Of a stretch of DNA of 64,000 nt, positions 1,457 through 23,261 are shown one piece after another. Source of the DNA: Pseudomonas fluorescens. Lineage in GTDB: Bacteria > Pseudomonadota > Gammaproteobacteria > Pseudomonadales > Pseudomonadaceae. The translations under genes and the position numbers were made by a program. The stretch lies in NCBI RefSeq assembly GCF_902497895.1, contig NZ_CABVHQ010000009.1:62001-126000 (forward strand). The letters are read 5' to 3'. Position 1 is the stretch's first letter; each line of letters starts with the position of its first letter. The notes under the pieces were generated by a model. It saw only the letters and a list, made by a program, of their open reading frames with translations. It had not been told where the DNA came from and did no database searches.

Positions 1457-2389
1457 ATGAGTCTGCATGAAACCTTCGGTCAGCCACTGCTGACCTTTCC
1501 CGACGCGGAAAAAAGCCCGCTGAGCATTCGCGCCAAGGCGCTGGTATTCGTCGATCCCCGTTCACGACAACTGCGTCACGAGCTCGAACAGCTGGCACCA
1601 CGCTCGATTTGCGTGCTGATCCGCGGTGAAACCGGGAGCGGCAAAGAACTGCTGGCGCGGCACATCCACCGTGGCAGCGACCGTGGTGGTTTGTTCGTTT
1701 CGGTCAACTGTGGAGCGATCAGTCCGACCTACGCCGATGCCGAGTTGTTCGGCTATGCCGCCGGCAGTCACAGCGGCTCGGCCAGCAGCCGCGCGGGTTG
1801 GTTCGGTTCAGCCAACGGTGGCACCTTATACCTGGACGAAATCGGTGACTTGCCGCTGCCGATCCAGGTCAAGTTGCTTGCGGCACTGGAGAACCACGAA
1901 GTCACCCGTGTCGGTGCTCAGCAGCCAAGCCCGGTGGACGTGCGGCTTGTTGCGGCGACCAGCATCGACCTGGCGCAAGCGGTGGCTGCCGGGAAATTTC
2001 ATGAGCGGCTTTATCACTACTTGAGCGAAGGTCAGCTGGAACTGCCGGCATTGCGCGAACGGGTCGGCGATATCCTTTCACTGGCCGAGTATTTCCTCGG
2101 CATCTACAGCCAGCGTCTGGACTTGCCGGTGCCCTTGATCAGCGAAGCGGCGCAGCAACTTCTGGAACATCACAGCTGGCCGGGCAATACCCGTGAGCTG
2201 GAGAACGTCATTCACTTTGCGTTGCTGGTGAGTACTGGCGACGAGATTCTGCCGGAGCATTTGAATCTGCCTGAAGTGCCTACCTCGCTGGCGGCGATCG
2301 AGCGGCAACTGAAGCACATCCTCACCAAAGGCACTACCAGCGAGCAAGCAGCTCTGAAACAACTCTTCAAAGACGCCGCGCTTTTGTAG
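1457..2389 (+). CDS. SfnR-like sigma-54 activator homologue with degenerate GAFTGA motif
   Basis: This 310-residue protein is mostly an AAA+ sigma-54-interaction domain. Walker A GETGSGKE is at 57-64, Walker B GGTLYLDEIGD at 121-131, and HSWPGNTRELENVIH is the sensor II region. It most resembles SfnR, the activator of dimethyl sulfone/sulfonate genes in pseudomonads. The loop that contacts sigma-54, normally GAFTGA, reads GSHSGS (103-108), and the usual FREDLYYRL arginine-finger segment reads FHERLYHYL. No Fis-type helix-turn-helix is obvious at the C-terminus. ATP binding may persist, but canonical activation of sigma-54 polymerase looks doubtful; it could modulate a paralogue. The stop codon lies inside a REP repeat. 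Confidence 0.8.
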   Translation: MSLHETFGQPLLTFPDAEKSPLSIRAKALVFVDPRSRQLRHELEQLAPRSICVLIRGETGSGKELLARHIHRGSDRGGLFVSVNCGAISPTYADAELFGYAAGSHSGSASSRAGWFGSANGGTLYLDEIGDLPLPIQVKLLAALENHEVTRVGAQQPSPVDVRLVAATSIDLAQAVAAGKFHERLYHYLSEGQLELPALRERVGDILSLAEYFLGIYSQRLDLPVPLISEAAQQLLEHHSWPGNTRELENVIHFALLVSTGDEILPEHLNLPEVPTSLAAIERQLKHILTKGTTSEQAALKQLFKDAALL

Positions 2390-2650: not shown

Positions 2651-3433
2651 ATGAAAAAGGTTCTGTTGTTCACCGCACTGGCGGCTGCCCTGGCCGCAGG
2701 CATCGCCCAGGCTGGCGAGAAACTGGTGGTTGCCGCAACGCCGGTGCCCCACGCCGAAATTCTGGAACTGATCAAGCCGACCCTCGCCAAAGAAGGCGTG
2801 GATCTGGAAATCAAGGTCTTCACTGATTATGTACAACCGAACGTACAGGTCGATCAGAAGCGTCTGGATGCCAACTACTTCCAGACCCTGCCGTACCTGC
2901 AAAGCTTCAACGAAGGCAAAGGCACTAACCTGGTGACCGTGATCGGCGTTCACGTCGAACCTTTCGGTGGCTACTCGAAGAAAGTCAAATCCCTGGCCGA
3001 GCTCAAAGACGGCGCGACCATCGCTATCCCGAACGAAGGCAGCAACAGCGGCCGTGCGTTGATCCTGCTGCAGAAGGCCGGCCTGATCGAATTGAAAGAC
3101 CCGAAAAACGCCCTGGCGACCCCGAAAGACATCGCCAAGAACCCGCATAACTTCAAGTTCAAAGAACTTGAATCGGCCCTGCTGCCGCGGGTTCTGGACC
3201 AGGTCGACCTGGACATGATCAACACCAACTACGCGCTGGAAGCCGGCCTGAACCCGGCCAAGGACGCGCTGATCATCGAAGGTGCCGATTCGCCGTACGT
3301 GAACTTCCTGGTGGCCCGTCCAGATAACAAGGACAGCGTCGCCATCCAGAAACTCGCCAAGGCACTGACCAGCCCGGAAGTGAAAGCATTCATCGCGAAA
3401 AAATACAGTGGCGCAGTACTGCCGGCGTTCTGA
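2651..3433 (+). CDS. metQ: MetQ/NlpA-family methionine-type substrate-binding protein (stand-alone)
   Basis: This is a 260-residue periplasmic binding protein of the NlpA/MetQ family. The signal peptide ends AGIAQA|GEK, followed by the family segments VAATPVPHAEILE, LDANYFQTLPYL, IPNEGSNSGRALILLQKAGL and INTNYALEAGL. Family members bind methionine or related sulfur compounds and deliver them to a MetNI transporter. No lipobox cysteine is present although most MetQ proteins are lipoproteins; the protein has no Cys and only two Met. No permease or ATPase gene adjoins it, so it may feed the MetNI encoded at 12.5-14.3 kb. A hairpin terminator follows at once. Substrate (D- or L-Met, or an organosulfur compound) is unresolved. 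Confidence 0.85.
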   Translation: MKKVLLFTALAAALAAGIAQAGEKLVVAATPVPHAEILELIKPTLAKEGVDLEIKVFTDYVQPNVQVDQKRLDANYFQTLPYLQSFNEGKGTNLVTVIGVHVEPFGGYSKKVKSLAELKDGATIAIPNEGSNSGRALILLQKAGLIELKDPKNALATPKDIAKNPHNFKFKELESALLPRVLDQVDLDMINTNYALEAGLNPAKDALIIEGADSPYVNFLVARPDNKDSVAIQKLAKALTSPEVKAFIAKKYSGAVLPAF

Positions 3434-3735: not shown

Positions 3736-4860
3736 ATGGCAGCACCGGAAACGCTTTTGTGCCGCTACGTTTACGATGCATTGGATCGGCTGACCGGACT
3801 TGTGCCCTCAGAGCAAGAACAGGTGCAGCGGTTTTATAACATTGAGCACCTGGTCACAGAGCTTCAGGGGCAGACGTCGCGGACTGTGTTCCAACAAGGC
3901 ACTCAATTGCTCGCGCTACAGCAGCGAGAAGGTGATGAGCTCAACAGCCAGTTGCTGGCCACCGATCAGCAACGCTCGGTATTGCATGCCATCGACGGGA
4001 CTCCGCGTCCGCAAAAAACCTATACGCCCTACGGTCATCGACGAGCTGAAAGCGGCCTGAGCAGCCTCCTTGGTTTCAACGGCGAGCGCCCGGACCCGGT
4101 GACCGGACACTATCTACTGGGCAATGGACATCGGGCGTTCAATCCGGTGTTGATGCGCTTCAACAGCCCGGACAGATTGAGCCCGTTTGGTCGGGGTGGA
4201 TTGAATCCGTATGCGTATTGTTTGGGGGACCCGGTGAATTTCAGCGACCCGACAGGGCGAGAAGCCTGGCAACCCTGGATGTTCGTTGGCTTGAGTCTCC
4301 TGGGTTTCATCTCCGGAGGAGTTGGACTTCTCTCTGCTGGGGTTGCAGGCGCAGGCTTGAAAACTACCAGTGTTTTTGCATCTGCAGCGGCTTCGAAAAA
4401 GGCTGTGTATTCCGGGGCAGTGAGTGCCGCTCTGGGCTTTGGCGGTGCCGGGGTAGGGGTGACGAGATCCATCATGAACGCCACAGATCCGGGTAATTCA
4501 GCTCAGGATCCTCTGCTCATTACAATGGCCGCGCTGAGCGTGTTGTCCTTAGTAGCCGCAGGCGTTTCGGCAGGCTATAGCTTTCGCGCGCATAGGTTAA
4601 ACAAGGCAGGAGCGAAAGGCTCTGATTCTTCGAAAAGCATCTCACCCCCTCGATCTTCTGTTTCGAGCAACAACATTTCAGGGCGCTCACAGACCCCTTT
4701 TGAGCCCTCGGCTCGTCCCCCGACGCCGGGCATCGATTTGGATGCATATGACTGGATGAGTCCAGAAATTAAAGCGGCTCTAAACAACTTTGGCGGAGGA
4801 TCACAGTCTCCCCGGAACTCTACACCTCGTAACTCCATTACAGAGATTCGCAGAACATGA
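3736..4860 (+). CDS. short orphan RHS repeat-associated core protein with variable hydrophobic C-terminus
   Basis: This 374-residue protein starts directly in the last YD/RHS repeats (CRYVYDALDRLTGL). It carries the core signature LLGFNGERPDPVTGHYLLGN and ends the conserved part at NPYAYCLGDPVNFSDPTG near residue 170. Beyond that lies a variable tail of about 200 residues with three glycine/alanine-rich hydrophobic stretches (about 177-210, 225-245 and 258-282) and a Ser/Pro-rich end. Full RHS toxins exceed 1000 residues; this is the short free-standing type common in Pseudomonas, not an obvious fragment of a local full-length gene. No VgrG, PAAR or recognisable immunity gene adjoins it. The tail could be a membrane-active effector, but that is inference. 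Confidence 0.8.
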   Translation: MAAPETLLCRYVYDALDRLTGLVPSEQEQVQRFYNIEHLVTELQGQTSRTVFQQGTQLLALQQREGDELNSQLLATDQQRSVLHAIDGTPRPQKTYTPYGHRRAESGLSSLLGFNGERPDPVTGHYLLGNGHRAFNPVLMRFNSPDRLSPFGRGGLNPYAYCLGDPVNFSDPTGREAWQPWMFVGLSLLGFISGGVGLLSAGVAGAGLKTTSVFASAAASKKAVYSGAVSAALGFGGAGVGVTRSIMNATDPGNSAQDPLLITMAALSVLSLVAAGVSAGYSFRAHRLNKAGAKGSDSSKSISPPRSSVSSNNISGRSQTPFEPSARPPTPGIDLDAYDWMSPEIKAALNNFGGGSQSPRNSTPRNSITEIRRT

Positions 4861-4894: not shown

Positions 4895-6055
4895 TCAATC
4901 CGGCCAATTCCACGCCGGTTCATCCAGCATCCCTTGTCCAACGATCTCGGTCTGACCGAAATTTTTCTCCAGCACAATGGAATTGCACCCCGAGTCTTGC
5001 TGCAGCGCCGCAATCAAGCGGCTGGCGTGGGACACCACCCACACCTGGCAGTTTTCCGAGGCGCGGATGATCAGCCGCGCCAACGCCGGCAACAGGTCTG
5101 GGTGCAGGCTGGTTTCCGGCTCGTTGAGCACCATCAACGTCGGTGGACGTGGGGTCAGCAGCGCGGCGACCAGCAGCAGATAACGCAGCGTGCCATCCGA
5201 CAGCTCCGCGGCAGACAGCGGGCGCAACAAGCCTTCCTGATAAAACTCGATTGCGAAGCGCCCACCTTGCAGCGGCGCGATATTCAGCGTCGCGCCGGGG
5301 AAGGCGTCGCTGATGGCGGTCTGTAACGCCTCTGGGTCGCCGATTTCACGGATGGTTTGCAACGCAGCGGCGAGATCGCGGCCGTCGTGGTGCAACACCG
5401 GGGTGCGGGTGCCCAGTTGTGGTTGGCGCGCGGGGGCCTCGGCATCGCTGCGAAAATGGTCATAAAAACGCCAGCCACGAATGGTCTCGCGCAGCAGTAA
5501 CACCTCTGGTGAGGAGCGCAGGCTGCCGACCTGATCGAACAGGCTGTCGAAGGTCGGGGTGTGTTGTGCGAGTACATCCCAACTGCGGTCTTCGCGGGCG
5601 CGGATCATCGGGCCGGCGCGATCGACCAGCAGGCTGGCGGGACGATAAATCGGTCCAGCCCAAATACATTCGCGTTTGATTTCCGGGTCCAGGGAAAAGT
5701 ACGAAAGGCTGGATTCTGGCAAGCCCAGTGAGATCGCGTAGCTGAAATCTTCACCGGCAAACCCCAGGCGCAAGCGCTTGGGAGACTGGCGCACTGAGGC
5801 TTGGACCGCCACTTCTGCGTTGCGCATGCGTCGCGAAAGGATCTCGGGTCCGGCCCAAAAGGTTGAATCCAGCCCACCCTCACGGGCCAGCCCATTGATT
5901 ACGCCGCCCTGGGCTGTCTCCGCCAACAGGCGCAGGGCGCGATACAAGTTGGACTTGCCGCTGCCGTTGGGGCCGGTAATCACGTTCAATCGATCGAGGG
6001 GGATCACCAGTTTGTTGATCGAGCGGTAATTGGCCACCGCGAGGGTTTTGAGCAT
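4895..6055 (-). CDS. AAA-family (RecF/OLD-like) ATPase
   Basis: This 386-residue protein opens with the SMC/RecF-type N-terminus (MLKTLAVANYRSINKLVIPL). Walker A is GPNGSGKS at 28-35, and the Walker B region near the C-terminus reads LMVLNEPETSLHPDLL, followed by a WVVSHASRLIAAL H-loop-like segment. The Walker B aspartate is Asn (LNEPE), a variant I also recall in related AAA_21 proteins. There is no TOPRIM nuclease domain and no long coiled coil. The gene stands alone, converging on the RHS gene with a 34-base gap. Function is unknown; DNA-repair or phage-defence-like roles are possible for the wider family but nothing here proves one. Confidence 0.75.
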   Translation of the reverse strand: MLKTLAVANYRSINKLVIPLDRLNVITGPNGSGKSNLYRALRLLAETAQGGVINGLAREGGLDSTFWAGPEILSRRMRNAEVAVQASVRQSPKRLRLGFAGEDFSYAISLGLPESSLSYFSLDPEIKRECIWAGPIYRPASLLVDRAGPMIRAREDRSWDVLAQHTPTFDSLFDQVGSLRSSPEVLLLRETIRGWRFYDHFRSDAEAPARQPQLGTRTPVLHHDGRDLAAALQTIREIGDPEALQTAISDAFPGATLNIAPLQGGRFAIEFYQEGLLRPLSAAELSDGTLRYLLLVAALLTPRPPTLMVLNEPETSLHPDLLPALARLIIRASENCQVWVVSHASRLIAALQQDSGCNSIVLEKNFGQTEIVGQGMLDEPAWNWPD

Positions 6056-8523: not shown

Positions 8524-11500
8524 AAGGGAGTTTCAACTTATCCGAATGGGCCATCAAGCATCAGTCCTTTGTCTGGTACCTGATGTTCGTCGCGTTGCTG
8601 ATGGGGGTGTTCTCGTACCTGAACCTGGGCCGTGAAGAGGACCCCTCGTTCACCATCAAAACCATGGTAATCCAGTCCCGCTGGCCCGGCGCGACCCAGG
8701 AGGAAACCCTCAAGCAGGTCACCGACCGCATCGAGAAAAAACTCGAAGAGCTTGATTCCCTCGACTACGTGAAGAGCTACACCCGACCCGGCGAGTCGAC
8801 CGTGTTCGTGTACCTGCGCGACACCACCAGTGCCAAGGACATTCCCGAGATCTGGTACCAGGTGCGCAAGAAGATCGATGATATCCGTGGCACCTTCCCG
8901 CCAGGGTTGCAGGGCCCGGCCTTCAACGACGAGTTCGGCGATGTCTACGGCTCGGTGTATGCCTTCACCGCCGATGGGCTGACGATGCGCCAATTGCGCG
9001 ACTACGTCGAACAGGTGCGCGCCGAGATCCACGAAGTGCCGAACCTGGGCAAAGTCGAAATGATCGGCGAGCAGGACGAAGTGCTCTACCTGAACTTCTC
9101 CACCCGCAAACTCGCAGCGCTGGGCATCGATCAAGGTCAGGTGGTGCAAAGCCTGCAATCGCAAAATGCGGTGACCCCGGCCGGGGTGATCGAGGCGGGG
9201 CCCGAACGCATCTCGGTGCGCACTTCGGGGCAATTCGCCTCGGAGAAAGACCTGGCCAACGTCAATCTGCGGCTCAATGACCGCTTCTATCGCCTCGCGG
9301 ACGTCGCCGAAATCAGCCGAGGTTATGTCGATCCGGCAACGCCAATGTTCCGTTTCAATGGTCAGCCGGCCATCGGCCTGGCGATCGCCATGAAAAAGGG
9401 CGGGAACATTCAGGACTTCGGCAGCGCCCTGCATAAACGTATGCAAGACCTCACCGCCGATTTGCCGGTGGGTATCGGCGTGCACAAGGTTTCCGATCAG
9501 GCCGAGGTGGTGGAAGTGGCGGTGGGGGGGTTTACCCGTGCGCTGTTCGAGGCGGTGGTGATCGTTCTGATCGTCAGCTTCGTCAGCCTTGGTGTGCGCG
9601 CCGGGCTGGTGGTGGCCTGCTCGATTCCGCTGGTGCTGGCGATGGTTTTCGTTTTCATGGAATACAGCGGCATCACCATGCAGCGGATTTCCCTCGGTGC
9701 GTTGATCATTGCTCTTGGCTTGCTGGTGGATGACGCGATGATCACCGTCGAAATGATGGTGACTCGCCTGGAAAAGGGCGAGACCAAGGAACAGGCAGCA
9801 ACCTTCGCCTACACCTCGACCGCGTTCCCGATGCTCACCGGCACCCTGGTGACTGTGGCCGGTTTCGTGCCCATCGGTTTGAACGCCAGCTCCGCCGGTG
9901 AATACACCTTCACCCTGTTCGCGGTCATCGCCGTGGCGATGCTGGTGTCGTGGATCGTTGCGGTGCTGTTCGCCCCGGTGATCGGCGTGCACATCCTCAG
10001 CACCAACGTGAAGCCCCATTCGGCGGAACCGGGACGCATCGGTCGCGCTTTCAACGGCGGGCTGCTGTGGAGCCTGCGCAATCGCTGGTGGGCAATCGGC
10101 ATCACCGTGCTGCTGTTCGTGCTGGCGGTGTTTTCCATGGGTTTTGTGCAGAACCAGTTCTTCCCATCCTCGGACCGCCCGGAAATTCTGGTCGACCTGA
10201 ACCTGCCGCAAAATGCCTCGATCAACGAAACCCGGCTGGCAGTCGACCGCCTCGAAGCGACGCTCAAGGACGATCCGGACATCCTGCGTTGGAGTACTTA
10301 TATCGGTGAAGGCGCGATTCGTTTTTACCTGCCCCTCGACCAGCAATTGCAGAACCCTTACTACGCGCAACTGGTGATCGTCAGCAAGGGCCTGGAAGAG
10401 CGCACGGCGCTGATGCAACGCTTGGACAAACGCCTGCGCGAAGATTTCGTCGGCGTCGGCAGTTTTGTCCAGGCGCTGGAAATGGGCCCGCCAGTGGGGC
10501 GGCCGATCCAGTATCGGATCAGTGGCAAGGACATCGATCAGGTGCGCAAACATGCCATCGATCTGGCGACCATGCTCGACAACAACTCGCACATCGGCGA
10601 GATGATTTACGACTGGAACGAACCGGGTAAAGTGCTGCGCATCGACATCGCCCAGGACAAGGCGCGGCAATTGGGATTGTCCTCGGAAGATGTGGCAAAC
10701 CTGATGAACAGCATTGTCAGCGGCGTGTCTGTGACCCAGGTGCATGACGATATCTACCTGATCAAGGTGGTCGGTCGCGCCGAAGACGCCGAACGTGGCT
10801 CGCCGGAAACCCTGCAGAACCTGCAGATCCTCACCCCGGGCGGTACCTCGATTCCGCTGCTGGCGTTTGCCAGCGTGCGTTATGAACTTGAACAACCCCT
10901 GGTCTGGCGCCGCGACCGCAAACCGACCATCACCATCAAGGCCGCGGTGCGCGACGAGATCCAGCCAACCGATCTGGTCAAACAGTTGAAGCCCGATATC
11001 GACAAGTTCGCCGCCGCTCTACCTGTCGGTTATTCGGTCGAGACCGGTGGCACGGTAGAGGAAAGCAGCAAGGCCCAGGGGCCGATCGCCAAAGTCGTAC
11101 CGCTGATGCTGTTCCTGATGGCGACCTTCCTGATGATCCAGTTGCACAGTGTGCAGAAGCTGTTCCTGGTGGCCAGCGTCGCGCCGCTGGGGCTGATCGG
11201 CGTGGTCCTGGCGCTGATCCCCACAGGCACGCCCATGGGCTTTGTGGCGATCCTCGGGATCCTCGCGCTGATCGGTATCATCATCCGCAACTCGGTGATC
11301 CTGGTGACCCAGATCGAGGAGTATGAGCGCGACGGCTTCGCGCCATGGGACGCCGTGGTACAAGCCACCGAGCACCGCCGTCGACCGATCCTGCTCACCG
11401 CCGCCGCCGCGAGCCTGGGCATGATCCCCATTGCTCGCGAAGTGTTCTGGGGGCCGATGGCCTACGCAATGATCGGCGGGATCATCATTGCCACGTTGCT

Positions 11501-11573
11501 GACGCTGTTGTTCCTGCCGGCGCTGTATGTGGCCTGGTACAAAATTCGCGAGCCGAAGAAAGAAGCACAGTAG
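8520..11573 (+). CDS. triC: RND-family efflux pump inner-membrane protein, TriC-like
   Basis: At 1017 residues this is a full-length RND transporter. The first membrane helix follows the N-terminus (FVWYLMFVALLMGVFSYL), then a large periplasmic porter domain. The TM4 proton-relay motif LGLLVDDAMITVEMM has the paired Asp, a second periplasmic domain follows, and the last helices lie around LMLFLMATFLMIQLHS, ILALIGIIIRNSVILVTQIE and MIGGIIIATLLTLLFLPALY. The FPSSDRPEILVDLNLP segment and overall form match the TriC branch, not AcrB/MexB. It overlaps triB by ATGA. Probable substrates are hydrophobic biocides such as triclosan, by homology only. A REP pair sits 15 bases after the stop. Confidence 0.88.
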   Translation: MKGSFNLSEWAIKHQSFVWYLMFVALLMGVFSYLNLGREEDPSFTIKTMVIQSRWPGATQEETLKQVTDRIEKKLEELDSLDYVKSYTRPGESTVFVYLRDTTSAKDIPEIWYQVRKKIDDIRGTFPPGLQGPAFNDEFGDVYGSVYAFTADGLTMRQLRDYVEQVRAEIHEVPNLGKVEMIGEQDEVLYLNFSTRKLAALGIDQGQVVQSLQSQNAVTPAGVIEAGPERISVRTSGQFASEKDLANVNLRLNDRFYRLADVAEISRGYVDPATPMFRFNGQPAIGLAIAMKKGGNIQDFGSALHKRMQDLTADLPVGIGVHKVSDQAEVVEVAVGGFTRALFEAVVIVLIVSFVSLGVRAGLVVACSIPLVLAMVFVFMEYSGITMQRISLGALIIALGLLVDDAMITVEMMVTRLEKGETKEQAATFAYTSTAFPMLTGTLVTVAGFVPIGLNASSAGEYTFTLFAVIAVAMLVSWIVAVLFAPVIGVHILSTNVKPHSAEPGRIGRAFNGGLLWSLRNRWWAIGITVLLFVLAVFSMGFVQNQFFPSSDRPEILVDLNLPQNASINETRLAVDRLEATLKDDPDILRWSTYIGEGAIRFYLPLDQQLQNPYYAQLVIVSKGLEERTALMQRLDKRLREDFVGVGSFVQALEMGPPVGRPIQYRISGKDIDQVRKHAIDLATMLDNNSHIGEMIYDWNEPGKVLRIDIAQDKARQLGLSSEDVANLMNSIVSGVSVTQVHDDIYLIKVVGRAEDAERGSPETLQNLQILTPGGTSIPLLAFASVRYELEQPLVWRRDRKPTITIKAAVRDEIQPTDLVKQLKPDIDKFAAALPVGYSVETGGTVEESSKAQGPIAKVVPLMLFLMATFLMIQLHSVQKLFLVASVAPLGLIGVVLALIPTGTPMGFVAILGILALIGIIIRNSVILVTQIEEYERDGFAPWDAVVQATEHRRRPILLTAAAASLGMIPIAREVFWGPMAYAMIGGIIIATLLTLLFLPALYVAWYKIREPKKEAQ

Positions 11574-11588
11574 CGAGCGCTTCGCGCT

Positions 11589-11664
11589 CATCGCGAGCAG
11601 GCTCGCTCCCACAAGATTATTCGTCGTTAACAGATCCAATGTGGGAGCGAGCTTGCTCGCGATG
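11589..11664. repeat. REP pair, 'gggagcgagcttgctcgcgatg' family
   Basis: CATCGCGAGCAGGCTCGCTC faces GAGCGAGCTTGCTCGCGATG across about 30 bases. It lies between the convergent triC and methyltransferase genes and probably serves as the shared 3' structure. Confidence 0.9.
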
Positions 11665-11677
11665 GCGCCCGAACTGT

Positions 11678-12307
11678 CTACACCGGCTTGCGCCAGACAC
11701 TCGCCAGCCAGGGTTGCTGCTCGCGCGGCAGCCCGGCCGGCCGATAGTAGTGTTCAAGCTCGACAAACCCGGCCTCGGTCAACATCCTGCGCCACGATGT
11801 CAGGTCGTGATACGCACCATAACGCGGGCCATTCCAGCCTTCCTGGTTCTCGCCACGGGGGTTGGAGCTGAACAACACCCCGCCGGATTTCAACGTGGCG
11901 TGCAGTTGCCGCAAAACCCGAGGCAACTCCTGCCCTGGAACATGAAACAGCACTGCGTTGGCGAAAATCCCGTCGAAGTGCTCGGCAGGCAGATCGAGTT
12001 TGAGAAAGTCTTGCTGCCAGACCTCGCAGCCACTGTCTTCCCGAGCCATTTGCGCAAGACGTTCCGAGCCGTCGAGGCCCACCGCGATATGGCCCATGCG
12101 CGTGAAGGTTTGCAGATCGCGCCCCGGGCCGCAGCCGAAGTCGAGAATTGTAAACGGCGCCTGGCCTTGAATATGCCGCAGCAACGCGTCGATGTTCTGA
12201 CTGACGTCGTGATCGCGAGTGCCTTCACGAAAGCTCTCGGCCACCTGGTTGTAATGGCCGAGGGTGGTGGAGGTGATCTGTTCGAGGTCGGTCGGGGCGA
12301 GTTTCAT
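11678..12307 (-). CDS. class I SAM-dependent methyltransferase
   Basis: This 209-residue Rossmann methyltransferase has motif I ILDFGCGPGRDLQTF (about 54-68) and an acidic motif II residue in VGLDGSERLAQMA. Motif post-I is DFLKLDLPAEHFDGIFANAV, and motif IV is followed by LHATLKSGGVLFSSNPRGEN. The size and layout fit the Methyltransf_11/25 group, which acts on small molecules or tRNA; the substrate is not apparent. It stands alone, convergent with triC and separated from metI by a REP pair, so no operon context helps. The C-terminus (LASVWRKPV) is typical of proteobacterial relatives. Confidence 0.85.
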   Translation of the reverse strand: MKLAPTDLEQITSTTLGHYNQVAESFREGTRDHDVSQNIDALLRHIQGQAPFTILDFGCGPGRDLQTFTRMGHIAVGLDGSERLAQMAREDSGCEVWQQDFLKLDLPAEHFDGIFANAVLFHVPGQELPRVLRQLHATLKSGGVLFSSNPRGENQEGWNGPRYGAYHDLTSWRRMLTEAGFVELEHYYRPAGLPREQQPWLASVWRKPV

Positions 12308-12382
12308 GATGAGCTGCGCAGGCGAGGGGTGATGGGACGACTATACCCCAAGCTCATATACCTCGAAAAAGCGCCGAGCCTT

Positions 12383-12487
12383 AAAAGATCGCAGCCTGCG
12401 GCAGCTCCTACGCCGACCGAGTACACCCGCGATATCGCTGGCGTACGCAAATCTCTTTGTAGGAGCTGCCGCAGGCTGCGATCTTTT
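12383..12487. repeat. REP pair, 'gtaggagctgccgcaggctgcgatc' family
   Basis: AAAAGATCGCAGCCTGCGGC faces its reverse complement across about 45 bases, just after the metI stop codon. It probably protects or ends the metQNI transcript. Confidence 0.92.
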
Positions 12488-12506
12488 GATCTTTGCGGCA
12501 GTCGAC

Positions 12507-13151
12507 TCAGCGCTTATTCAACCCCCGCGCCAACCGATCCCCTCCCAACTGAATCAGCGCCACCAGAATCACCAACAGCACGATCACCGTGAGCATGATC
12601 TGGCTATCGAACCGTTGATACCCATAGCGGTACGCGATGTCACCCAGACCGCCTGCACCAATCGCACCGGCCATGGCCGAGGAGTTGATCATGGTCACCA
12701 GGGTAATGGTGAAACCGCCGACGATCCCCGGCAACGCTTCCGGCAACAGCACATGCCAGACGATATGCCAGCGCCGGCAACCCATGGCCTGGGCGGCTTC
12801 GATCAGGCCGTGGTCGACCTCCCGCAGGCTGACTTCAGCAATGCGCGCAAAGAACGGTGTGGCGGCGATGGTCAGCGGGACCACGGCCGCCCACACACCA
12901 TAGGTAGTGCCGACGATCAGCCGGGTGAAGGGAATCAGCGCAACCATCAGAATCAGAAACGGGATCGAGCGGAACAGATTGACGAAAGCCCCCAACGCCC
13001 GGTTCAGCGCCGGTGCTTCATAGATCCCGCCCTTGGAGCTGGTGACCAGAATCACTGCCAGTGGAATACCCGCCAATAGCGCGATCAGCGATGACACTCC
13101 GACCATCAGGAAGGTGTCGATGACACCTTGAAGTAAACGATCAAACCACAT
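12507..13151 (-). CDS. metI: methionine ABC transporter permease MetI
   Basis: This 214-residue membrane permease starts at [20 protein letters not shown]. The upstream in-frame extension encodes a non-hydrophobic sequence inside metN and is rejected. Five or so membrane segments are visible, and the EAA loop ([20 protein letters not shown]) that docks to the ATPase lies around 120-140. The start overlaps the metN end by 11 bases, showing translational coupling. MetI dimerises and pairs with MetN to import methionine or related compounds. It is the last gene of the SfnB-DszA-MetQNI operon, which suggests that the imported substrate feeds the two-component oxygenases encoded upstream. Confidence 0.92.
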
Positions 13152-15264: not shown

Positions 15265-16632
15265 TCAATGTCGGTAGCTGGCGCCGGTGTGTTGCTGGGG
15301 CAAATGCGCCTCTGCGTGAAACAGCTTTTCTCGCAGGCTTCCGCTGTCATACGCGGTCTTGTACGACCCTCTGCGTTGCAACTCGGGGATCACCAGGTCG
15401 ATGAAGTCGACATAGCTTTGCGGGGTGACGATGCGGGTCAGGTTGAAGCCGTCCAGGCCGGTTTTGGCGATCCAGGATTCGAGCTCGTCGGCGACCTGAT
15501 CAGGTGAGCCGACCAGGGTGATGTAGCGTCCGCCCAAGGCGTGTTGTTCAAGCAATTGGCGCCGGGTCCAGTCGTTGTTTTGCAGGATTTTGGTGGCGGA
15601 CTGGATGGCGTTGCTTTTCACGTGCTGGATCGGCTCGTCGAGTTCGTACTCGGAAAAATCGATACCGGTGGACGCCGAGAAATGCGCGACCCCGGCTTCG
15701 GCGCTGGCGTAGCTCAGGTACTCGGCATGCTTGGCCCAGGCCAGCGCCTCGGTGGCGCCGACGATCACGTTCAAGCCCATGAACACCTTGATGTCCTCTG
15801 GGTTGCGTCCGGCCTCGACAGCGCTGGCGCGGACTTTGTCTACCTGCACCTTGGTCGCCGCTTTGTTCTGCCCGCTGATGAACACGCACTCGGCATGCCG
15901 CCCGGCGAACTGCAAGCCGCGATCCGAACTGCCGGCCTGGAACAGCACCGGCGTGCGCTGAGGGGACGGCTCGCAAAGGTGATAGCCCTCGACCTGGTAA
16001 AACTCGCCGTGGTGCTGAACCTTGTGGACCTTGTCCGGCTGCGCGTAGATCCGCTGCTGCGGGTCATTGAGTACCGCGTCGTTTTCCCAGCTGCCTTCCC
16101 AGAGTTTGTAGAGCACCTCCAGGTATTCATCGGCCTGGTCATAACGCCGGTCATGTTCAACCTGTTCAATCAGACCCATGGCCTTGGCGGCACTGTCGAG
16201 GTAACCGGTGACAATGTTCCAGCCCACCCGACCGCGGCTCAGGTGATCGAGGGTCGACATGCGACGGGCGAACAGATACGGCGGTTCATAGGTCAGGTTG
16301 GCGGTCAGGCCGAAGCCAAGGTTTTTCGTCACCGCAGCCATGGCCGAGACCAGCAGCAACGGGTCGTTGACCGGCAACTGGATCGACTCCTTGAGCGGTA
16401 CGTCCACCGAATGTTGGTAGACGTCGTAGACGCCGACGATATCTGCAATGAACAAGCCGTCGAACAGCCCGCGCTCCAGCAGTTGTGCCAGTTCGGTCCA
16501 GTATTCAATTGTCTTGTATTGAGTCGAGTTGTCCCGCGGGTGAGTCCACAGGCCATGGTTGATGTGCCCGATGCAGTTCATGTTGAACGCATTGAGCAGG
16601 ATTTTTTTTCTCTTTGTTAAAGGCGAGGACAT
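15265..16632 (-). CDS. FMNH2-dependent LLM-class monooxygenase (DszA/NtaA/SnaA-like)
   Basis: This 455-residue bacterial luciferase-like enzyme has the NtaA/SnaA/DszA pattern. It opens LLNAFNMNCIGHINHGLW, continues with GLFDGLFIADIVGVYDVYQ and EPYLFARR-type segments, the GRVGWNIVTGYLD motif and SPQRTPVLFQAGSSDRG. These enzymes use reduced FMN and oxygen to cleave C-S or C-N bonds, for example opening the sulfone ring in DszA. A flavin reductase is not encoded nearby. The ATG shares one base with the stop of the upstream SfnB-like gene (TGATG). With the SfnB-like genes it probably forms a DszC-then-DszA type desulfurisation route; the true substrate is unknown. Confidence 0.85.
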   Translation of the reverse strand: MSSPLTKRKKILLNAFNMNCIGHINHGLWTHPRDNSTQYKTIEYWTELAQLLERGLFDGLFIADIVGVYDVYQHSVDVPLKESIQLPVNDPLLLVSAMAAVTKNLGFGLTANLTYEPPYLFARRMSTLDHLSRGRVGWNIVTGYLDSAAKAMGLIEQVEHDRRYDQADEYLEVLYKLWEGSWENDAVLNDPQQRIYAQPDKVHKVQHHGEFYQVEGYHLCEPSPQRTPVLFQAGSSDRGLQFAGRHAECVFISGQNKAATKVQVDKVRASAVEAGRNPEDIKVFMGLNVIVGATEALAWAKHAEYLSYASAEAGVAHFSASTGIDFSEYELDEPIQHVKSNAIQSATKILQNNDWTRRQLLEQHALGGRYITLVGSPDQVADELESWIAKTGLDGFNLTRIVTPQSYVDFIDLVIPELQRRGSYKTAYDSGSLREKLFHAEAHLPQQHTGASYRH

Positions 16633-17825
16633 CAGATAGTCCCCCGCAACGGCGGATTTTCATCATTGAGGTAGTAGTTACCGACCGCGTGGTACTTCCA
16701 GCGCACCGGGTCGTGCAGGGTGTGCACCCGGGCGTTGCGCCAGTGACGGTCCAGACCGTGTTCGGCCAGGGTGGCCTGGCTGCCGGCCAGTTCGAACAGA
16801 GTGCTGCCGGCCGCCAGGGAAATTTCGGTGCTGATGGCACGGGCTTCGGCGACCGCAATAGACGCTGCGGCGACGGTCTCGGCGTTCGTTTCAGCTTGAG
16901 CCTGGTCGAGGAATTCACCGGCGCGTTCCAGCAGTGCCTCGGCGGCGTGCAGACGAATGCTCAAGTGGCCGAAGCTCTTGATCGTCAGCGGATCTTCAGT
17001 GGCTTTGTCATTGCCGGAATCAATCCATGGTCGGGTCTTGGTCCGGACAAAATGCAGCGCGTCTTCATACGCGGCGCGGGCAATCCCGGTATCGATGGCC
17101 GCGTGGAGTATCTGCGCCAGCGGGCCGACCGGGGTCGGGCGTTCGAAGGCGCTTTGAAACGGGATCACATCCTCGGCCGCTACATAAACGTTGTCGAACA
17201 CCACCGAACCGCTACCGGTGGTGCGCTGGCCGAAGCCGCTCCAGTCGTCGATCACCGTCAGACCCTTACTGTCGCGCGGTACAAAGGCCAGTTGCTGCAC
17301 GCCATTTTCATCCACCACGGAGGTCGGAATGCGGTGTGCGTAAATCGCCCCGGTGGAATAGAACTTACGGCCGTTGATGCGAAAACCCCCGCCGTCGCGG
17401 TTCAGGCTGGTGACGCGGTCGTGGGCGGTTTTGGTGCCAAATTCTGCAAGCGCATTACCGAAACGCTGGCCGGCCAATACCTCGGCATAGAGGCGTTTTT
17501 GCTGCTCCAGACTGCCGTTTACCCGCAGCACTTCCAAGGCATAAAAGTGGTTCTGCGGGATCTGCCCCAGGGACGAGTCGGCTTGGGCGATCAAGGCAAT
17601 GACCTTGGCCAGGGTGACATGGGAAACGCCAGCACCACCGAAGGCCTTGGGCACGCTGATGCCCCACAGCCCGGAGCGCGAAAACACTTCCAGCTCCGCG
17701 TGTGGCAGGCGACGCTCGCGATCACGCAAGGCGCTGTCGCGTTTGAAATCTTCGGCCAGGTCACTGGCGACGATCAGGGCTTGTTCGTCGCTGGTTATGA
17801 CCGCGACGTGTTGAGAAAGAGTCAT
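16632..17825 (-). CDS. SfnB-family (DszC-like) flavin oxidoreductase, copy 1
   Basis: This 397-residue protein has an acyl-CoA dehydrogenase fold: N-terminal helices with VPKAFGGAGVSHVTLAKVIA, the central beta domain with FRINGRKFYSTGAIYAHRI and VIDDWSGFGQRTTGSGSV, then a helical C-domain ending in HWRNARVHTLHDPVRWKYHA. This is the DszC/SfnB group, FMNH2-dependent monooxygenases for sulfur acquisition. The start at MTLSQHV follows GGAGAATCAC; an upstream ATG in frame has no ribosome site. It contains no Cys and no Met beyond the initiator, which fits expression under sulfur starvation. It is clearly paralogous to the next upstream gene. Confidence 0.87.
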   Translation of the reverse strand: MTLSQHVAVITSDEQALIVASDLAEDFKRDSALRDRERRLPHAELEVFSRSGLWGISVPKAFGGAGVSHVTLAKVIALIAQADSSLGQIPQNHFYALEVLRVNGSLEQQKRLYAEVLAGQRFGNALAEFGTKTAHDRVTSLNRDGGGFRINGRKFYSTGAIYAHRIPTSVVDENGVQQLAFVPRDSKGLTVIDDWSGFGQRTTGSGSVVFDNVYVAAEDVIPFQSAFERPTPVGPLAQILHAAIDTGIARAAYEDALHFVRTKTRPWIDSGNDKATEDPLTIKSFGHLSIRLHAAEALLERAGEFLDQAQAETNAETVAAASIAVAEARAISTEISLAAGSTLFELAGSQATLAEHGLDRHWRNARVHTLHDPVRWKYHAVGNYYLNDENPPLRGTI

Positions 17826-17862
17826 GTGATTCTCCAGAGATCTGGTCAAAGTGTTCTGGTCG

Positions 17863-19104
17863 TCAGATCCAGGAATGCCGGGCGGGCAAGGTGCCGTTCA
17901 GGTGATAGGTGCCCACGGCGTGATATTTCCAGCGCACCGGGTCGTGAAGGGTGTGGACGCGCGCGTTGCGCCAGTGGCGGTCGAGATTGAATTCGGCGAG
18001 GGTTGCGCGGCTGCCGGCCAGTTCGAACAGCTTCTCGCTGGCCAGCAACGAGATCTCGGTGGTCAGTACTTTGGCTTCGGCCACGGCGATCGAGGCGCGG
18101 GCCGCGGATTCGGCAGTCACAGGCGCAGCGCTGACCTGATCGAGCACTTTTGCGGCCTTGCGCAACAGGGCTTCGGCGGCATGCAGTTCTATTTTCAGCT
18201 TGCCGATGTCGGCGATCACATAGAGGTCATCGCTGGCTCGTTCGACATTGGCGTCGATCCACGGCCGCGAACGTTCGCGGACAAAGCGGATGCTGTCGTC
18301 GATCGCAGCACGGGCGATACCGAGGTCAATGGCGGCCTGAATCAATTGCGACACGGCGCCCTGAGTATTCGGAACTTCGCTCAATCGCCAGTTATCCACC
18401 ACCAGCTCGGCTTCGACCGGTACGTTGTTGAGCAACACGGTGCCGCTGGCGGTGGTCCGTTGGCCAAAGCCTGACCAGTCATCGACGATGCGCAGGCCGG
18501 CTGTGCCACGGCGGACGAACGCCATGACTGGCTTGCCTTCGTCGTTCAGGGCCTTGACGGTAATCCAGTGAGCGAACAAGGCGCCGGTGGAGTAAAACTT
18601 CTGGCCGTTGATAACGAAGCTGTCACCTTTGGCGGTGATCCGGGCTTTGAGCTCAAGGGTGTTTTTGCTGTCGCGCTCAGGTCCCGCATTACCGATCCGC
18701 CAGCCTTCGAGCACACTTTGGAACAGCTGCTTTTTTTGCCGTTCGGTGGCGCTGTGCAACAGCACATTGAGAATGCCGAACTGGTTTTGCGGGATCTGCC
18801 CCAGCGCCGGGTCAGCCGCGGAAATAATCGCGAATACTTCGGCCAGGGTGACGAAGGAGACCTGCGGACCGCCGAATTCACGGGGGATGGAAATACTGCC
18901 CAGGCCGCTGCGGGTGAACTGCTCTATTTCCGACCACGGCAACTTGCGCTGCCGGTCACGCCGGGATGCTTGCAAACGGGCGATGTCAGCGAGTTCATGG
19001 GCGGCTTTGAGGGCTTGCGCGTCATTGCGCAGGACCCGTGCGGGCAGCAATAGCGGGGCGATGTCCAGATCACTCTGGACAGATGCATCTGCCAGATTGG
19101 ACAT
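17863..19104 (-). CDS. SfnB-family (DszC-like) flavin oxidoreductase, copy 2
   Basis: This 413-residue paralogue of the gene downstream shares the same order of motifs: IPREFGGPQVSFVTLAEVFA, FVINGQKFYSTGALFAHWI, IVDDWSGFGQRTTASGTV and HWRNARVHTLHDPVRWKYHA. The ATG at 19104 is preceded by AAGGAG with eight bases of spacing; a GTG three codons earlier overlaps that site. It has no Cys and two Met. It is the first gene of the operon SfnB-SfnB-DszA-MetQNI. Two similar but diverged flavoenzymes may act on different sulfones or sulfoxides or form a heteromer; neither is proven. Confidence 0.87.
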   Translation of the reverse strand: MSNLADASVQSDLDIAPLLLPARVLRNDAQALKAAHELADIARLQASRRDRQRKLPWSEIEQFTRSGLGSISIPREFGGPQVSFVTLAEVFAIISAADPALGQIPQNQFGILNVLLHSATERQKKQLFQSVLEGWRIGNAGPERDSKNTLELKARITAKGDSFVINGQKFYSTGALFAHWITVKALNDEGKPVMAFVRRGTAGLRIVDDWSGFGQRTTASGTVLLNNVPVEAELVVDNWRLSEVPNTQGAVSQLIQAAIDLGIARAAIDDSIRFVRERSRPWIDANVERASDDLYVIADIGKLKIELHAAEALLRKAAKVLDQVSAAPVTAESAARASIAVAEAKVLTTEISLLASEKLFELAGSRATLAEFNLDRHWRNARVHTLHDPVRWKYHAVGTYHLNGTLPARHSWI

Positions 19105-19367
19105 CAGTGCCACTCCTTGGCTGCACGCAATGCCCTGGCGATCTGCACTTGGGTGATTGTGTTCCGGACCATACCTACCTCACATCTTATGGAAGTGCCG
19201 CGAAAGCCGCGGCGAAATCAAAACCAAGAATGTCCGGTGGTCCGGTATATATACCTTAATCGCGCATAAAAAATTAATAAACTAACTTTTGGGAATATGC
19301 ATAGAAGGTCTGTGGTCAGGATCCCCGCTCCGGAAATTTCAAGCCCGAAGCGGCGGGGAGGGAGGAC
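19105..19367 (-). promoter_or_regulatory. AT-rich promoter region of the SfnB-DszA-MetQNI operon
   Basis: The 263-base gap between the SfnB-like gene and the end of the Ig-like gene has an AT-rich core (about 19245-19300) with TATATATA, repeated TTAATT blocks and GGAATAT at 19292-19298. This resembles the leaders of the other sulfur genes. A GC-rich hairpin-like sequence (GCCGCGAAAGCCGCGGC) lies at 19197-19213. CysB binding is an inference. Confidence 0.4.
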
Positions 19368-20132
19368 TCAGTGGCGCCGGGTTTCGGCCGCTCGAAGCAC
19401 CGTTCTCAGCGGTATTTTGCTGTAAGGGTTGGCCGCTCCGATCTTTAGCTTGCGGGCTGGCGCCCAGCGCGAGTTGTTGCCGACGCGATCGAGAATGCAG
19501 TAGGTGATTTCCAGTTGGTTGTCTTCCCCTGCCTCCAGAATCACGGTCGGTGGTACCCAGACGTTGATCGGCTTGCCAACCTCATCGGCTTTGACTTTGG
19601 GCAAGTCCATGCGCACATCGCCCCAGCGCAAGGTGATTTCATCCTCGGCAGCCATGTTCAAGTAAGGTTCTATGGTCAGCGGTACGCCGCGCTTGATCTG
19701 GTTGGGATTGACCCCCTGGCGGCGGATCGTCTCGGGGATACCCATAGGTTCAAGGCCCTGGTTTTCGTCACCGCAGAGTTCCGACGGTTGCCCGCCCGGG
19801 CAGTCGAGCTTGACCTGGACCCGTCTTGCGCTCGATAGCGCGGGACCCTGTCCAACTTGCATGACCCGATAGTGGATTCGCGAAGTGCCATTCTGAATAA
19901 AACTCTCCGGCACCCGCAGGCTGACCGGCTTTGCGATGTCGGCGGCCTTGAGTGACCGGGACGCCACATAGCAGCCGTCCCAGAACAATTCGATGAGGTC
20001 ACCTTCGTCCATGGCGGCATAGGGCGGTATCTCGATCAGCAGATGAGCGGCAGCTATGACACCTATGCCCTGCATAGAGTTATGTGCCAGAGACGGAGCG
20101 CCAAGTTCCGGTTTTGCTGAGGTACGTGTCAT
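19368..20132 (-). CDS. uncharacterised protein of two tandem Ig-like modules
   Basis: This 254-residue protein starts at MTRTSAKPELGAPSL after a strong AAGGAG site. Two homologous modules can be aligned by eye. The first runs from IEIPPYAAMDEGDLIELFWDG through KAADIAKPVSLRVPESFI to YRVMQVGQGP. The second runs from IEPYLNMAAEDEITLRWGD through KADEVGKPINVWVPPTVI to YCILDRVGNN. The alternating hydrophobic pattern suggests beta-sandwich (Ig-like) folds of about 95 residues. I recall similar modules in longer Pseudomonas proteins of unknown function. There is no signal peptide or membrane segment. It has its own transcription unit and no evident link to sulfur metabolism. Confidence 0.7.
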   Translation of the reverse strand: MTRTSAKPELGAPSLAHNSMQGIGVIAAAHLLIEIPPYAAMDEGDLIELFWDGCYVASRSLKAADIAKPVSLRVPESFIQNGTSRIHYRVMQVGQGPALSSARRVQVKLDCPGGQPSELCGDENQGLEPMGIPETIRRQGVNPNQIKRGVPLTIEPYLNMAAEDEITLRWGDVRMDLPKVKADEVGKPINVWVPPTVILEAGEDNQLEITYCILDRVGNNSRWAPARKLKIGAANPYSKIPLRTVLRAAETRRH

Positions 20133-20749
20133 GTCGTTCTCCTTGATAGCGTGCAGCGAAATCCGTTTCGGGCAAGCACACAACGCAAGTGCCTAGCCTT
20201 CACCTATATAGCGCCACGCAAGTTACAAAGTGATAAGTCTATGAGCTGAAAAATTCAGAGCATGTCATGGAGTCTGATATTTATTGTTTAGATAAGTTGG
20301 GTGCGGAGTTCATGTCAAGCCATTCTATGGGTAAACTTATTGATAGGTCTCTAATCAGAAAAAGCCTACATGGGATTGGCATTTTAGTGTGCGCGTCATA
20401 TGACTTTTACCCAGAGGTTGTTGCGCCGAATAGCCGCATTGCTAGCCGATAGACTCAGGCAGCCATAGTCATGATTATTCTCGGTTCTTCAAAAAAATGT
20501 GTTGCCGGAGGTATGTGTGGACGTCGCATACAATTAATAATCCCACGGCCGAACGGCTGATAGTGTGGGGCGGGAGGCATTACGGATTGATGAAGGCGGG
20601 ATGTGACAGGTCTTTATACAACGACTATTAGTTGTTCAGGTTGAAAAAAGTATTCGTCAGAAAATGTAATGAATATTTTGGAGCTTAATCATGCAAGTGC
20701 GATTTGGCAGGGCTCGCTCCATCCTTGGGCGAGTTAATCGGGGTAATAT
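20133..20749. other. 617-base gene-poor, AT-richer gap
   Basis: This holds the leader of the Ig-like gene (right of 20132) and the region downstream of tcyN. A short reading frame at 20267-20452 has no ribosome site or recognisable product. No terminator, RNA gene or repeat was recognised. Its lower G+C than the surroundings may reflect decayed foreign DNA. Confidence 0.5.
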
Positions 20750-21502
20750 TTAAGTGCCAGGATTAAGAAACTTGCTGAGGAACTGTCGAGTACGCTCTTC
20801 TTTCGGGTTGGCAAACAATGCCTTGGCTTCTCCCTGTTCGACGATGACTCCCTTGTCGAAAAACACCACCCGATTGGCCACGTCCCGGGCGAAGCCCATT
20901 TCATGGGTGACAATCACCATGGTGCGTTTCTCTTCGGCCAGGCTGCGAATGGTCGCCAGTACTTCGCCAACCAATTCCGGGTCCAGGGCTGAGGTGGGTT
21001 CATCGAACAGGATCACTTCCGGCTCCATCGCCAGCGCCCGGGCAATCGCTACACGCTGTTGCTGCCCACCGGAAAGCCTGCGTGGATAAGCGTCCTCCTT
21101 GCCCGCCAGGCCAACCTTGGCCATCAGCGCCCGGCCCAGGGCCACCGCCTTGTCCTTTGGCATCTTCTTGACTACCAACGGGCCTTCGATCACGTTTTCC
21201 AGCGCCGTGCGATGGGGGAACAGGTTGAAGCTCTGGAATACGAAACCAACGTGCTGGCGCAACCGACGCACCAGCCCTTGTTGCTGGTTCAACGGTCGGC
21301 TGCCATCGATCTCGATATCGCCGACCTTGATTCGGCCACTGGTGGGTTCTTCGAGGAAATTCAGGCAGCGCAGGAAGGTCGTTTTGCCCGAGCCGCTAGG
21401 CCCGATGATCGCCACTACCTCGCCTTCCTTCACTTGCAGATCGATGCCGTTGAGCACCACTTGACCCTTGAACTGCTTTGTCAGTTTTTCCACGACAATC
21501 AT
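20750..21502 (-). CDS. tcyN: L-cystine ABC transporter ATP-binding protein TcyN (YecC)
   Basis: This 250-residue ATPase of the polar amino acid uptake family has Walker A GPSGSGKT (about 33-40), the Q-loop [17 protein letters not shown], the signature [10 protein letters not shown], Walker [13 protein letters not shown] and the H-loop [14 protein letters not shown]. It is the last gene of a three-gene operon and starts four bases after the permease stop. Together with the permease and binding protein next to D-cysteine desulfhydrase it matches the TcyJ-TcyL-TcyN/FliY-YecSC cystine importer. The cystine assignment comes from synteny and family likeness. Confidence 0.88.
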
Positions 21503-21506
21503 TGGG

Positions 21507-22172
21507 TCAAAACTCCTGGTCGTGCCGATTGACCCGTGCTTCCAGCTGGTTTTGCAGGTGCGAAAGCACCGTTGCCAGAACCCAGTAGATCAGCGCGGCG
21601 GCAAGATACATGGTGAAAATTTCGAAGGTGCGAGCGGTAATCAGCTGCGCCTGACGGAACAGTTCCGGCACCTGAATGGTGGCGGCCAGCGCCGTGTCCT
21701 TGACCAGCGAAATGAAGCTATTGCCCAGCGGTGGCAGTGCCGTGCGCATCGCTTGCGGCAGGATGGCCCGACGCAGGGTCTGCGCACGGGTCATGCCGAT
21801 ACTGGCGGCAGCTTCCCACTGGCCGCGTTCGATTGAGCTGATCGCGGCACGGAGAATTTCGCAGGCATAGGCGGCCATGTTCAGCGAGAAGCCGATCAAC
21901 GCCGCCGGCAGCGGATCCAGTTCGATACCTAATTGCGGCAAGCCGTAATAGATCACGAACAACTGCACCAGCAACGGCGTGCCGCGAAAGAACGACACGT
22001 AGACGCGGGCAATCCAGCTCACCAGCTTGAAGCGCGAAAGGCGCATCAGCGCCAGACCGAAGCCCATCACCAGGCCGAAGAACATCCCGCCCAGGCTCAA
22101 AATGACCGTGTAGTACGCGCCCTTCAGCAGGAAGGGCGCGGAATCCAGCGCGAGTTGGAAAGCTTGTTCCAT
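21507..22172 (-). CDS. tcyL: L-cystine ABC transporter permease TcyL (YecS)
   Basis: This 221-residue HisMQ-family permease has N-terminal membrane segments ([20 protein letters not shown]), the family stretch [20 protein letters not shown], and the EAA loop [20 protein letters not shown] followed by [20 protein letters not shown]. The ATG shares one base with the stop of the binding-protein gene (TAATG), so the two are translationally coupled. It sits in the inner membrane as a probable homodimer with two TcyN subunits. Confidence 0.9.
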
Positions 22173-22966: not shown

Positions 22967-23175
22967 GAAAAGCCCCTATGTTTTCTTATGAAAATGCATT
23001 TGGAAAAGAAGGCGAATCTCTGGATCTGGACGACTGCAACATCCTGCCTTAAAGCAGCCTATGCGTCTCGCGGCATATTCGCCTGTGGCGCGACTATATG
23101 ACGATGCTTTTAGATTGGAAAATACTATAAAAATACATTCTTATTCATTTATGGAATAAAATTTTATCGTATTCG
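22967..23175 (-). promoter_or_regulatory. AT-rich promoter region of tcyJLN
   Basis: The stretch 23105-23172 is very AT-rich and contains TTATTC (23141) and GGAATAA (23153-23159), facing each other. The same elements occur before the other sulfur operons, suggesting a common regulator, plausibly CysB. Confidence 0.4.
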
Positions 23176-23257
23176 AAAAGATCGCAGCCTGCGGCAGCTC
23201 CTACAAAGGCAGGTTGATCACCGATCCCGTAGGAGCTGCCGCAGGCTGCGATCTTTT
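23176..23257. repeat. REP pair, 'gtaggagctgccgcaggctgcgatc' family
   Basis: Two near-perfect facing arms (AAAAGATCGCAGCCTGCGGC and reverse complement) are separated by about 25 bases. They lie directly after the dcyD stop codon and upstream of the tcyJ promoter. Confidence 0.92.
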
Positions 23258-23261
23258 GCGT

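Follow-up and report, generated by a model that had tools for sequence, protein, structure and literature searches.

Relation to described bEBPs

SfnR is the sulfate-starvation σ54 activator of Pseudomonas, and regulators of the TyrR, DhaR, HupR and VpsR type retain a DNA-binding domain. Departures from the full bEBP architecture are already on record in the available text of PMC3162934, which describes both bEBPs with a defective GAFTGA, the L1 motif being lost in TyrR, DhaR, HupR and VpsR, and bEBPs without an HTH; among the latter, FlgR (Helicobacter) and CtcC (Chlamydia) have no DNA-binding domain and are listed among σ54 activators, and FleT of Rhodobacter sphaeroides is a bare AAA+ domain with neither a regulatory nor a DNA-binding domain. 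FleT and FleQ together activate σ54 promoters (PMC9542535, in the part available).

Here we analyzed a protein encoded in a 64,000-nucleotide stretch of Pseudomonas fluorescens DNA (hereafter the window). An initial annotation had called it SfnR-like, which holds as kinship (about 50–57% identity to SfnR-like bEBPs, with which it shares an AAA+ domain without an N-terminal sensor domain) and would be no more than a supposition as to function. Its orthologs form a clade that differs from SfnR in lacking the strict GAFTGA, the RxDxxxR motif, E81/E97 and the C-terminal Fis-type HTH, and in its wider occurrence across the genus (274 versus 206 of 298 genomes). The bare architecture is that of FleT, which works with FleQ on σ54 promoters; in the clade, the σ54 contact and finger residues are gone and there is no linked partner bEBP. 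FlgR and CtcC share the missing DNA-binding domain and are listed as σ54 activators, whereas the clade has lost the contact loop. The TyrR group shares the lost L1 motif together with a retained AAA+ fold (VpsR, 7v2b) and keeps the DNA-binding domain that the clade lacks (no sister-type HTH in 80 orthologs and none found by Pfam in the window protein). The AAA+ protein is very probably a conserved derivative of the bEBP lineage that no longer serves σ54. In the literature searched, which was mostly open-access and excluded the supplementary list of PMC3162934, we found no conserved clade that lacks GAFTGA, the HTH and the trans finger together.

Domain content and predicted structure

The gene and its motifs are as follows (window coordinates).

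1457 to 2389, + strand, bEBP-derived AAA+ protein gene, 310 aa, uninterrupted ORF
1625 to 1645, + strand, Walker A GETGSGK, residues 57–63, Lys invariant in 32/32 clade rows
1763 to 1780, + strand, L1 loop GSHSGS at the GAFTGA position, residues 103–108
1826 to 1840, + strand, Walker B LYLDE, residues 124–128, Asp and Glu invariant in 32/32 rows
1997 to 2023, + strand, arginine-finger segment FHERLYHYL, residues 181–189, with H-R-Y at the PspF R162-D164-R168 positions
2183 to 2200, + strand, sensor II GNTREL, residues 243–248, Arg invariant in 32/32 rows
2267 to 2386, + strand, C-terminal tail under weak constraint and without an HTH, residues 271–310

A Pfam scan of the 310-aa protein returns σ54/AAA+ domains and a lid only, with no HTH domain: PF00158 covers residues 33–194 (180.5 bits against a cut-off of 20.2), weaker AAA models overlap this region, and the AAA+ lid spans residues 200–270. 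Among the 21 strong PF00158 matches of the genome, that of the window protein is the weakest at 182.3 bits, the remaining 20 falling between 205 and 263 bits. A structure predicted from an 83-sequence alignment (pLDDT 89.9, pTM 0.80; an earlier 15-sequence model with L131 as first row was set aside at pLDDT 62.2) finds its closest folds in the bEBP AAA+ domains of NtrC1, FlrC and FleQ (Foldseek, VIA-align), with NtrC1 (1ny5) at Z 30.8 and an rmsd of 1.8 over 252 aligned residues, FlrC and FleQ slightly lower, and VpsR (7v2b) at Z 27.2.

Domain score and bEBP fold thus place the protein in the PF00158 family, and of the features of a functional σ54 bEBP it has Walker A, Walker B and sensor II and lacks GAFTGA and RxDxxxR. 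Because the domain score lies far above the Pfam cut-off, such proteins are likely to be named σ54 regulators by domain, a name that would mislead regulon predictions in hundreds of genomes since the protein fails the motif tests.

The orthologs form a clade of their own

A protein match at E ≤ 1e-70 is found in 277/298 genomes of the genus, and 274/298 carry an ortholog by score (E ≤ 1e-110, plus one split gene) in a scan that scored the best seven candidates per genome; the top SfnR-like match seen was 1.2e-94. The best match is weaker than 1e-100 in four of the 277 (G068, G218, G286 and G096). The first three hold SfnR-like proteins only and no ortholog by score, and the ortholog of G096 is split across two contig ends and is counted among the 274. 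In-match stops occur in some rows of the scan, the stop in L054 falling in the C-terminal tail. Beyond the genus, an order-wide sample gives matches at E ≤ 1e-75 in 12/293 genomes, namely eight of the window genus (its own genome included), three of another genus of the family, and G326, both matches of which retain GAFTGA and an HTH. Named orthologs among the matches listed include those of P. protegens, P. putida, P. viridiflava, P. lini and P. neustonica, among others.

After thinning at 90% identity, 32 orthologs group as a single clade in a quick 59-row tree from which the L1 and finger columns were omitted (SH-aLRT 100). The sister group is a set of SfnR-like proteins, here termed C-type (SH-aLRT 87, from a short tree search without bootstrap), which have GAFSGA or GSFSGA, RxDxxxR and an HTH; the orthologs thus stand as a separate clade and do not fall inside the SfnR clade. 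The initial annotation had called for a homologue alignment to see whether the change defines a conserved clade, and the motif changes do mark one (SH-aLRT 100; 274/298 genomes with an ortholog by score).

Two C-type proteins (L087 and L135, loci L243 and L244), with GAFSGA, FRLDLFYRI and an HTH, adjoin monooxygenase-like genes, and two ORFs in each of these regions match the DmoA-family protein of the window at 23–33% identity. The N-terminal motif PLSIRAKALVF is common to these two proteins and to the ortholog clade. A contig titled Pantoea sp. Cy-639 (L150) has a Pseudomonas-type hydrolase/AAA+/metQ locus and is probably a misnamed record.

The σ54 and trans-acting residues are lost and the cis site is kept

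Motifs were read in 80 ortholog loci, the ortholog class being set by GTLYLDE at Walker B (80/80 orthologs versus 0/36 SfnR-like sisters) so that the traits counted lie outside the defining string. The initial annotation had described intact Walker motifs, a GAFTGA replaced by GSHSGS, an altered arginine-finger segment and no obvious HTH, and each of these readings is borne out. GETGSGK and LYLDE are present, as is GNTREL at sensor II. The strict loop GAF[TS]GA is found in 0/80 orthologs versus 31/36 sisters, and the RxDxxxR finger in 0/80 versus 36/36; in the window protein this motif reads HxRxxxY, and the segment FHERLYHYL replaces the FRxDLxxR(L/I) of the 36 sister bEBPs. An HTH motif is likewise present in 0/80 orthologs versus 36/36 sisters, and tblastn of sister C-termini against ortholog DNA finds no remnant (0 matches at E ≤ 0.01; control, 36/36 sister loci); this HTH test consists of our own motif plus the C-terminal tblastn, since a Pfam scan of two sisters called an HTH in neither. 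Regulators of the TyrR, DhaR or VpsR type bind DNA, and with no HTH in any of the 80 orthologs it is very unlikely that the clade consists of σ54-independent transcription regulators of this type. What speaks for such a role is that a defective GAFTGA is known in these regulators (PMC3162934, in the text available).

The loop varies across the clade, where GSYSGS and not GSHSGS is the commonest form. Three of the 80 orthologs (L037, L056 and L067) satisfy the looser pattern G[AS][FY][TS]GA, which all 36 sisters satisfy; these near-consensus loops count against our main reading, and the three proteins nonetheless lack the finger and the HTH. Together with the Sigma54_activat family domain, they are the evidence that the protein might still be a σ54 activator with an unusual loop. 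We consider this highly improbable, as E81, E97, R162, D164 and R168 are replaced in 32/32 clade rows and the L1 Phe in 31/32.

In PspF numbering, the cis residues K42, E43, D107, E108 and R227 are each retained in 32/32 rows, N64 in 21/32, and the sensor I Thr in 24/32. On the trans side, R162, D164 and R168 are each found in 0/32 rows, with the R168 position always Tyr, and R122 is retained in only 2/32; the E125 position is Glu, as in PspF, in 28/32 rows, where the 22 aligned sisters have Gln. Variants of R162, D164 and R168 in PspF show a drastic loss of ATPase activity, with a Vmax for R162H of 0.08 versus 39.5 min−1 (PMC3419264, in the text available). The coupling residues E81 and E97 are each present in 0/32 rows, the E97 position always being Gly. 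Their switch partner R131 is present in 32/32 rows, and the pre-sensor I loop residues R131, V132 and G133 are kept in 32, 31 and 31 of the 32. According to the available text of PMC2745333, E81/E97–R131 form a highly conserved bEBP switch between the pre-sensor I and L1 loops. This residue pattern suggests a protein with an intact nucleotide pocket in which both the output to σ54 and the donation of trans residues to a neighbouring ATP site would be disabled.

A new Arg occupies the D164 position in 27/32 rows. Together with the intact Walker B and the retained R131-V132-G133, it favors a homomeric AAA+ remodeller that uses this Arg as a shifted finger and acts on a non-σ54 substrate through the altered L1 loop. 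Such a remodeller is unlikely, in that the Arg is absent from five rows, including both basal g3 rows (FLEGLQQYL) and the P. neustonica row (FSAELFEYL), and that L1 varies from one clade member to another, which does not fit a conserved contact with a substrate.

Selection acts on the AAA+ core

Against 11 close orthologs, the core (residues 25–270) has dN/dS values of 0.018–0.028, with a mean of 0.019 over 66 pairs, whereas the tail after residue 270 has a mean of 0.33; all of these values are approximate, since most pairs have a dS close to 1. The protein is just 274 residues long in 12/80 orthologs. The AAA+ core is the working part of the protein, and the C-terminal tail resembles a remnant of the lost HTH arm.

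The loss of several functional motifs and the weakly constrained tail would also be expected of a decaying pseudogene, and the initial annotation had named a change unique to this strain, in a decaying gene, as what would overturn its reading. We give this explanation practically no credence and reject it: orthologs are present in 274/298 genomes of the genus, the core evolves at a dN/dS of about 0.02, and K42, E43, D107, E108 and R227 are invariant in 32/32 rows.

Co-occurrence with SfnR

When the best six candidates per genome are scored, SfnR-type matches at E ≤ 1e-95 are found in 206/298 genomes. On the same basis, SfnR is present in 203/274 ortholog carriers, leaving 71/274 without a match at this threshold, and occurs without the ortholog in only 3/206 genomes (G068, G218 and G286); the 206 SfnR carriers include no genome from the 21 that lack a window-protein match (E ≤ 1e-70). 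In the window genome itself, the scoring of all 35 candidates reveals no SfnR-like paralog at E ≤ 1e-60, and 20 other loci score at least 205 bits to PF00158.

The initial annotation had put forward a role as anti-activator of a true SfnR or as its partner in a heteromer. As an obligate role this is not supported: 71/274 carriers, this genome included, show no SfnR at E ≤ 1e-95, which makes an obligate partnership unlikely in general, and we reject it for the window genome (E ≤ 1e-60) and for those carriers. In a broader version, the protein would join canonical bEBPs as a hetero-oligomer subunit or counter them as an anti-activator, whether these are SfnR-like or not; its cis site would accept a neighbour's finger and, donating no finger and making no σ54 contact, the protein would poison or tune mixed rings. 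Kinship with SfnR-like proteins, an intact cis site with a lost trans side, and a sulfur context that includes the window's SfnB genes all accord with it, and there are precedents in HrpR/HrpS, FleQ/FleT and the VnfA paralogs (PMC9542535, in the part available), FleT lacking both accessory domains (PMC3162934, likewise). We regard this version as possible and rather doubtful, given the carriers and the window genome that lack SfnR at the thresholds above and the replacement of residues that in PspF work across the interface between subunits (R162, D164, R168 and, in most rows, R122).

A serine hydrolase gene accompanies the AAA+ gene

The surroundings of the AAA+ gene comprise the following features.

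736 to 758, + strand, conserved element ATAAATATCTTCTTATTCCTTAA upstream of the hydrolase–AAA+ pair, from recurrence across loci
778 to 783, + strand, σ70-like −10 (TATACT), a hexamer match
819 to 1400, + strand, serine hydrolase PF06821, 193 aa, Pfam 229.6 bits, S70/D132/H161 triad by motif
2385 to 2482, no strand assigned, 37-nt REP-like inverted repeat, 95% complementary, between the AAA+ gene and metQ, from the sequence
2651 to 3433, + strand, MetQ/NlpA-family substrate-binding protein (metQ), PF03180 337.5 bits

The hydrolase gene lies directly upstream of, and co-directional with, the AAA+ gene in 77/80 ortholog loci, with gaps of about 11–193 nt, and its triad is conserved in the aligned loci (S in 76/76, D in 76/77 and H in 77/77). 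The three exceptions belong to the other genus of the family, where metQ and the gene of a Cys/Met PLP enzyme precede the AAA+ gene (the enzyme family tested in one of the three) and the hydrolase lies elsewhere. No hydrolase gene stands beside the 36 sister bEBP genes, a weak control since at least 21 of these loci have <700 nt of upstream sequence; two 16–17 kb regions around C-type sisters also contain none. Genus-wide, the hydrolase is found in 285/298 genomes at E ≤ 1e-55, with 273 genomes carrying hydrolase and AAA+ gene, one the AAA+ gene only (G201, its match beginning at contig base 331), 12 the hydrolase only, and 12 neither. The 12 hydrolase-only genomes have no AAA+ gene in the hydrolase flank examined, and a sulfate-binding-protein gene lies in the flank in 9/12 (L228–L234, L236 and L239). 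Since the hydrolase occurs alone in 12/285 genomes and the two genes are unlinked in the three genomes of the other genus, the pairing may be mere neighbourhood.

On the downstream side, a MetQ/NlpA-family gene is co-directional within the flank in 58/80 loci. The window contig further encodes a sulfate-binding protein, a DmoA-family monooxygenase, two SfnB proteins and a cystine-binding protein besides the MetQ-type protein. We take PP_5165 to PP_5167 of P. putida KT2440 to be metQ, the AAA+ gene and the hydrolase. The adjoining tags PP5168–PP5171 are assigned to sulfate transport in the available text of PMC3829105, and a literature search on the PP_5165–PP_5167 tags gave, among the matches listed, no paper that we recognised as treating the AAA+ gene.

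The promoter region of the pair

TTCTTATTC starts 67–79 nt ahead of the hydrolase start in 73/77 loci; of the remainder, two (L062 and L066) carry close variants of it, one (L160, P. neustonica) has none, and L043 is at a contig end. It is also exact in 6/12 hydrolase-only genomes. A whole-genome search for the element pattern gives two matches (reversed control, one), of which that upstream of the hydrolase is the only mismatch-free match in the genome and the second lies upstream of a cystine transporter. Short TTATTC/GAATAA words are found in 3/10 upstream regions (those of the hydrolase, metQ and cystine genes) and are absent from the other 7/10 tested, that of sbp included. The TTCTTATTC element is probably a sulfur-starvation control site and, in view of the sulfur context of the locus, a candidate CysB site. 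A σ54 promoter upstream of the hydrolase was considered and rejected, with only four scattered weak matches in 77 loci, and none was found upstream of metQ in 58 loci.

Proposed function

Since the parts for σ54 contact, for completing the ATPase ring and for DNA binding are lost and most sampled Pseudomonas nonetheless keep the gene under strong selection, the AAA+ protein probably has a new job. The initial annotation had also proposed a repurposed ATPase; repurposing is upheld by the conserved clade, purifying selection and selective loss of parts, whereas the loss of the trans catalytic residues casts doubt on ATPase activity unless a partner takes part. We propose that a σ54 activator of the SfnR kind would have been duplicated in the Pseudomonas ancestor and then changed function, its product keeping the full cis nucleotide pocket (Walker A, Walker B and sensor II) and losing the σ54 contact loop, the E81/E97 coupling, R162/D164/R168 and in most cases R122, and the DNA-binding HTH. 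Alone, the protein would bind ATP with very slow or no hydrolysis, and would neither activate σ54 promoters nor itself bind DNA; it would act during sulfur limitation as an ATP-dependent protein–protein switch. That it is an ATP-binding protein switch is an evenly balanced proposition. Two features might count against it, namely the Arg that newly occupies the D164 position (27/32 rows), if this serves as a shifted finger, and the retained R131/V132/G133, which a pure switch might not need.

The most likely partner would be the operon-mate serine hydrolase, the alternative being another product of the sulfur locus, either a regulator or a transporter; we put the hydrolase forward only as a tentative candidate. 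It is conceivable, though not what we would expect, that this bEBP-derived ATPase has left transcription altogether and is, across Pseudomonas, an ATP-binding pseudo-activator that gates the hydrolase or another protein of the sulfur locus by energy or sulfur status. If so, it would be, to our knowledge, the first bEBP-lineage protein to act outside RNA polymerase control. The clade amounts to a natural experiment in which the σ54 loop, the E81/E97 coupling and the trans finger are gone and the cis ATP site remains under strong selection, and this natural loss of trans and retention of cis makes the separability of cis and trans roles in AAA+ proteins directly testable. It also points to an unstudied part of Pseudomonas sulfur physiology.

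Additional features of the window

A second sulfur cluster lies at 15265 to 23262 on the − strand and holds the DmoA-family monooxygenase, two SfnB-family oxidoreductases, and cystine-binding protein and transporter genes, with a palindrome-like TTATTCCATAAATGAATAAG about 180–190 nt before the cystine genes. Just downstream of metQ, at 3736 to 4860 on the + strand, is a 374-aa orphan ORF with a low GC3 of 0.57 and no Pfam match, which resembles an RHS core fragment on our reading of its sequence; in L122, from a related genome, three consecutive ORFs at 9803 to 12751 each match part of it. Finally, 4895 to 6055 on the − strand encodes an AAA_21-type ATPase (PF13304, 120.7 bits) that weakly matches MAD3, a defence protein, in NCBIfam (65 bits, the cut-off being 420).
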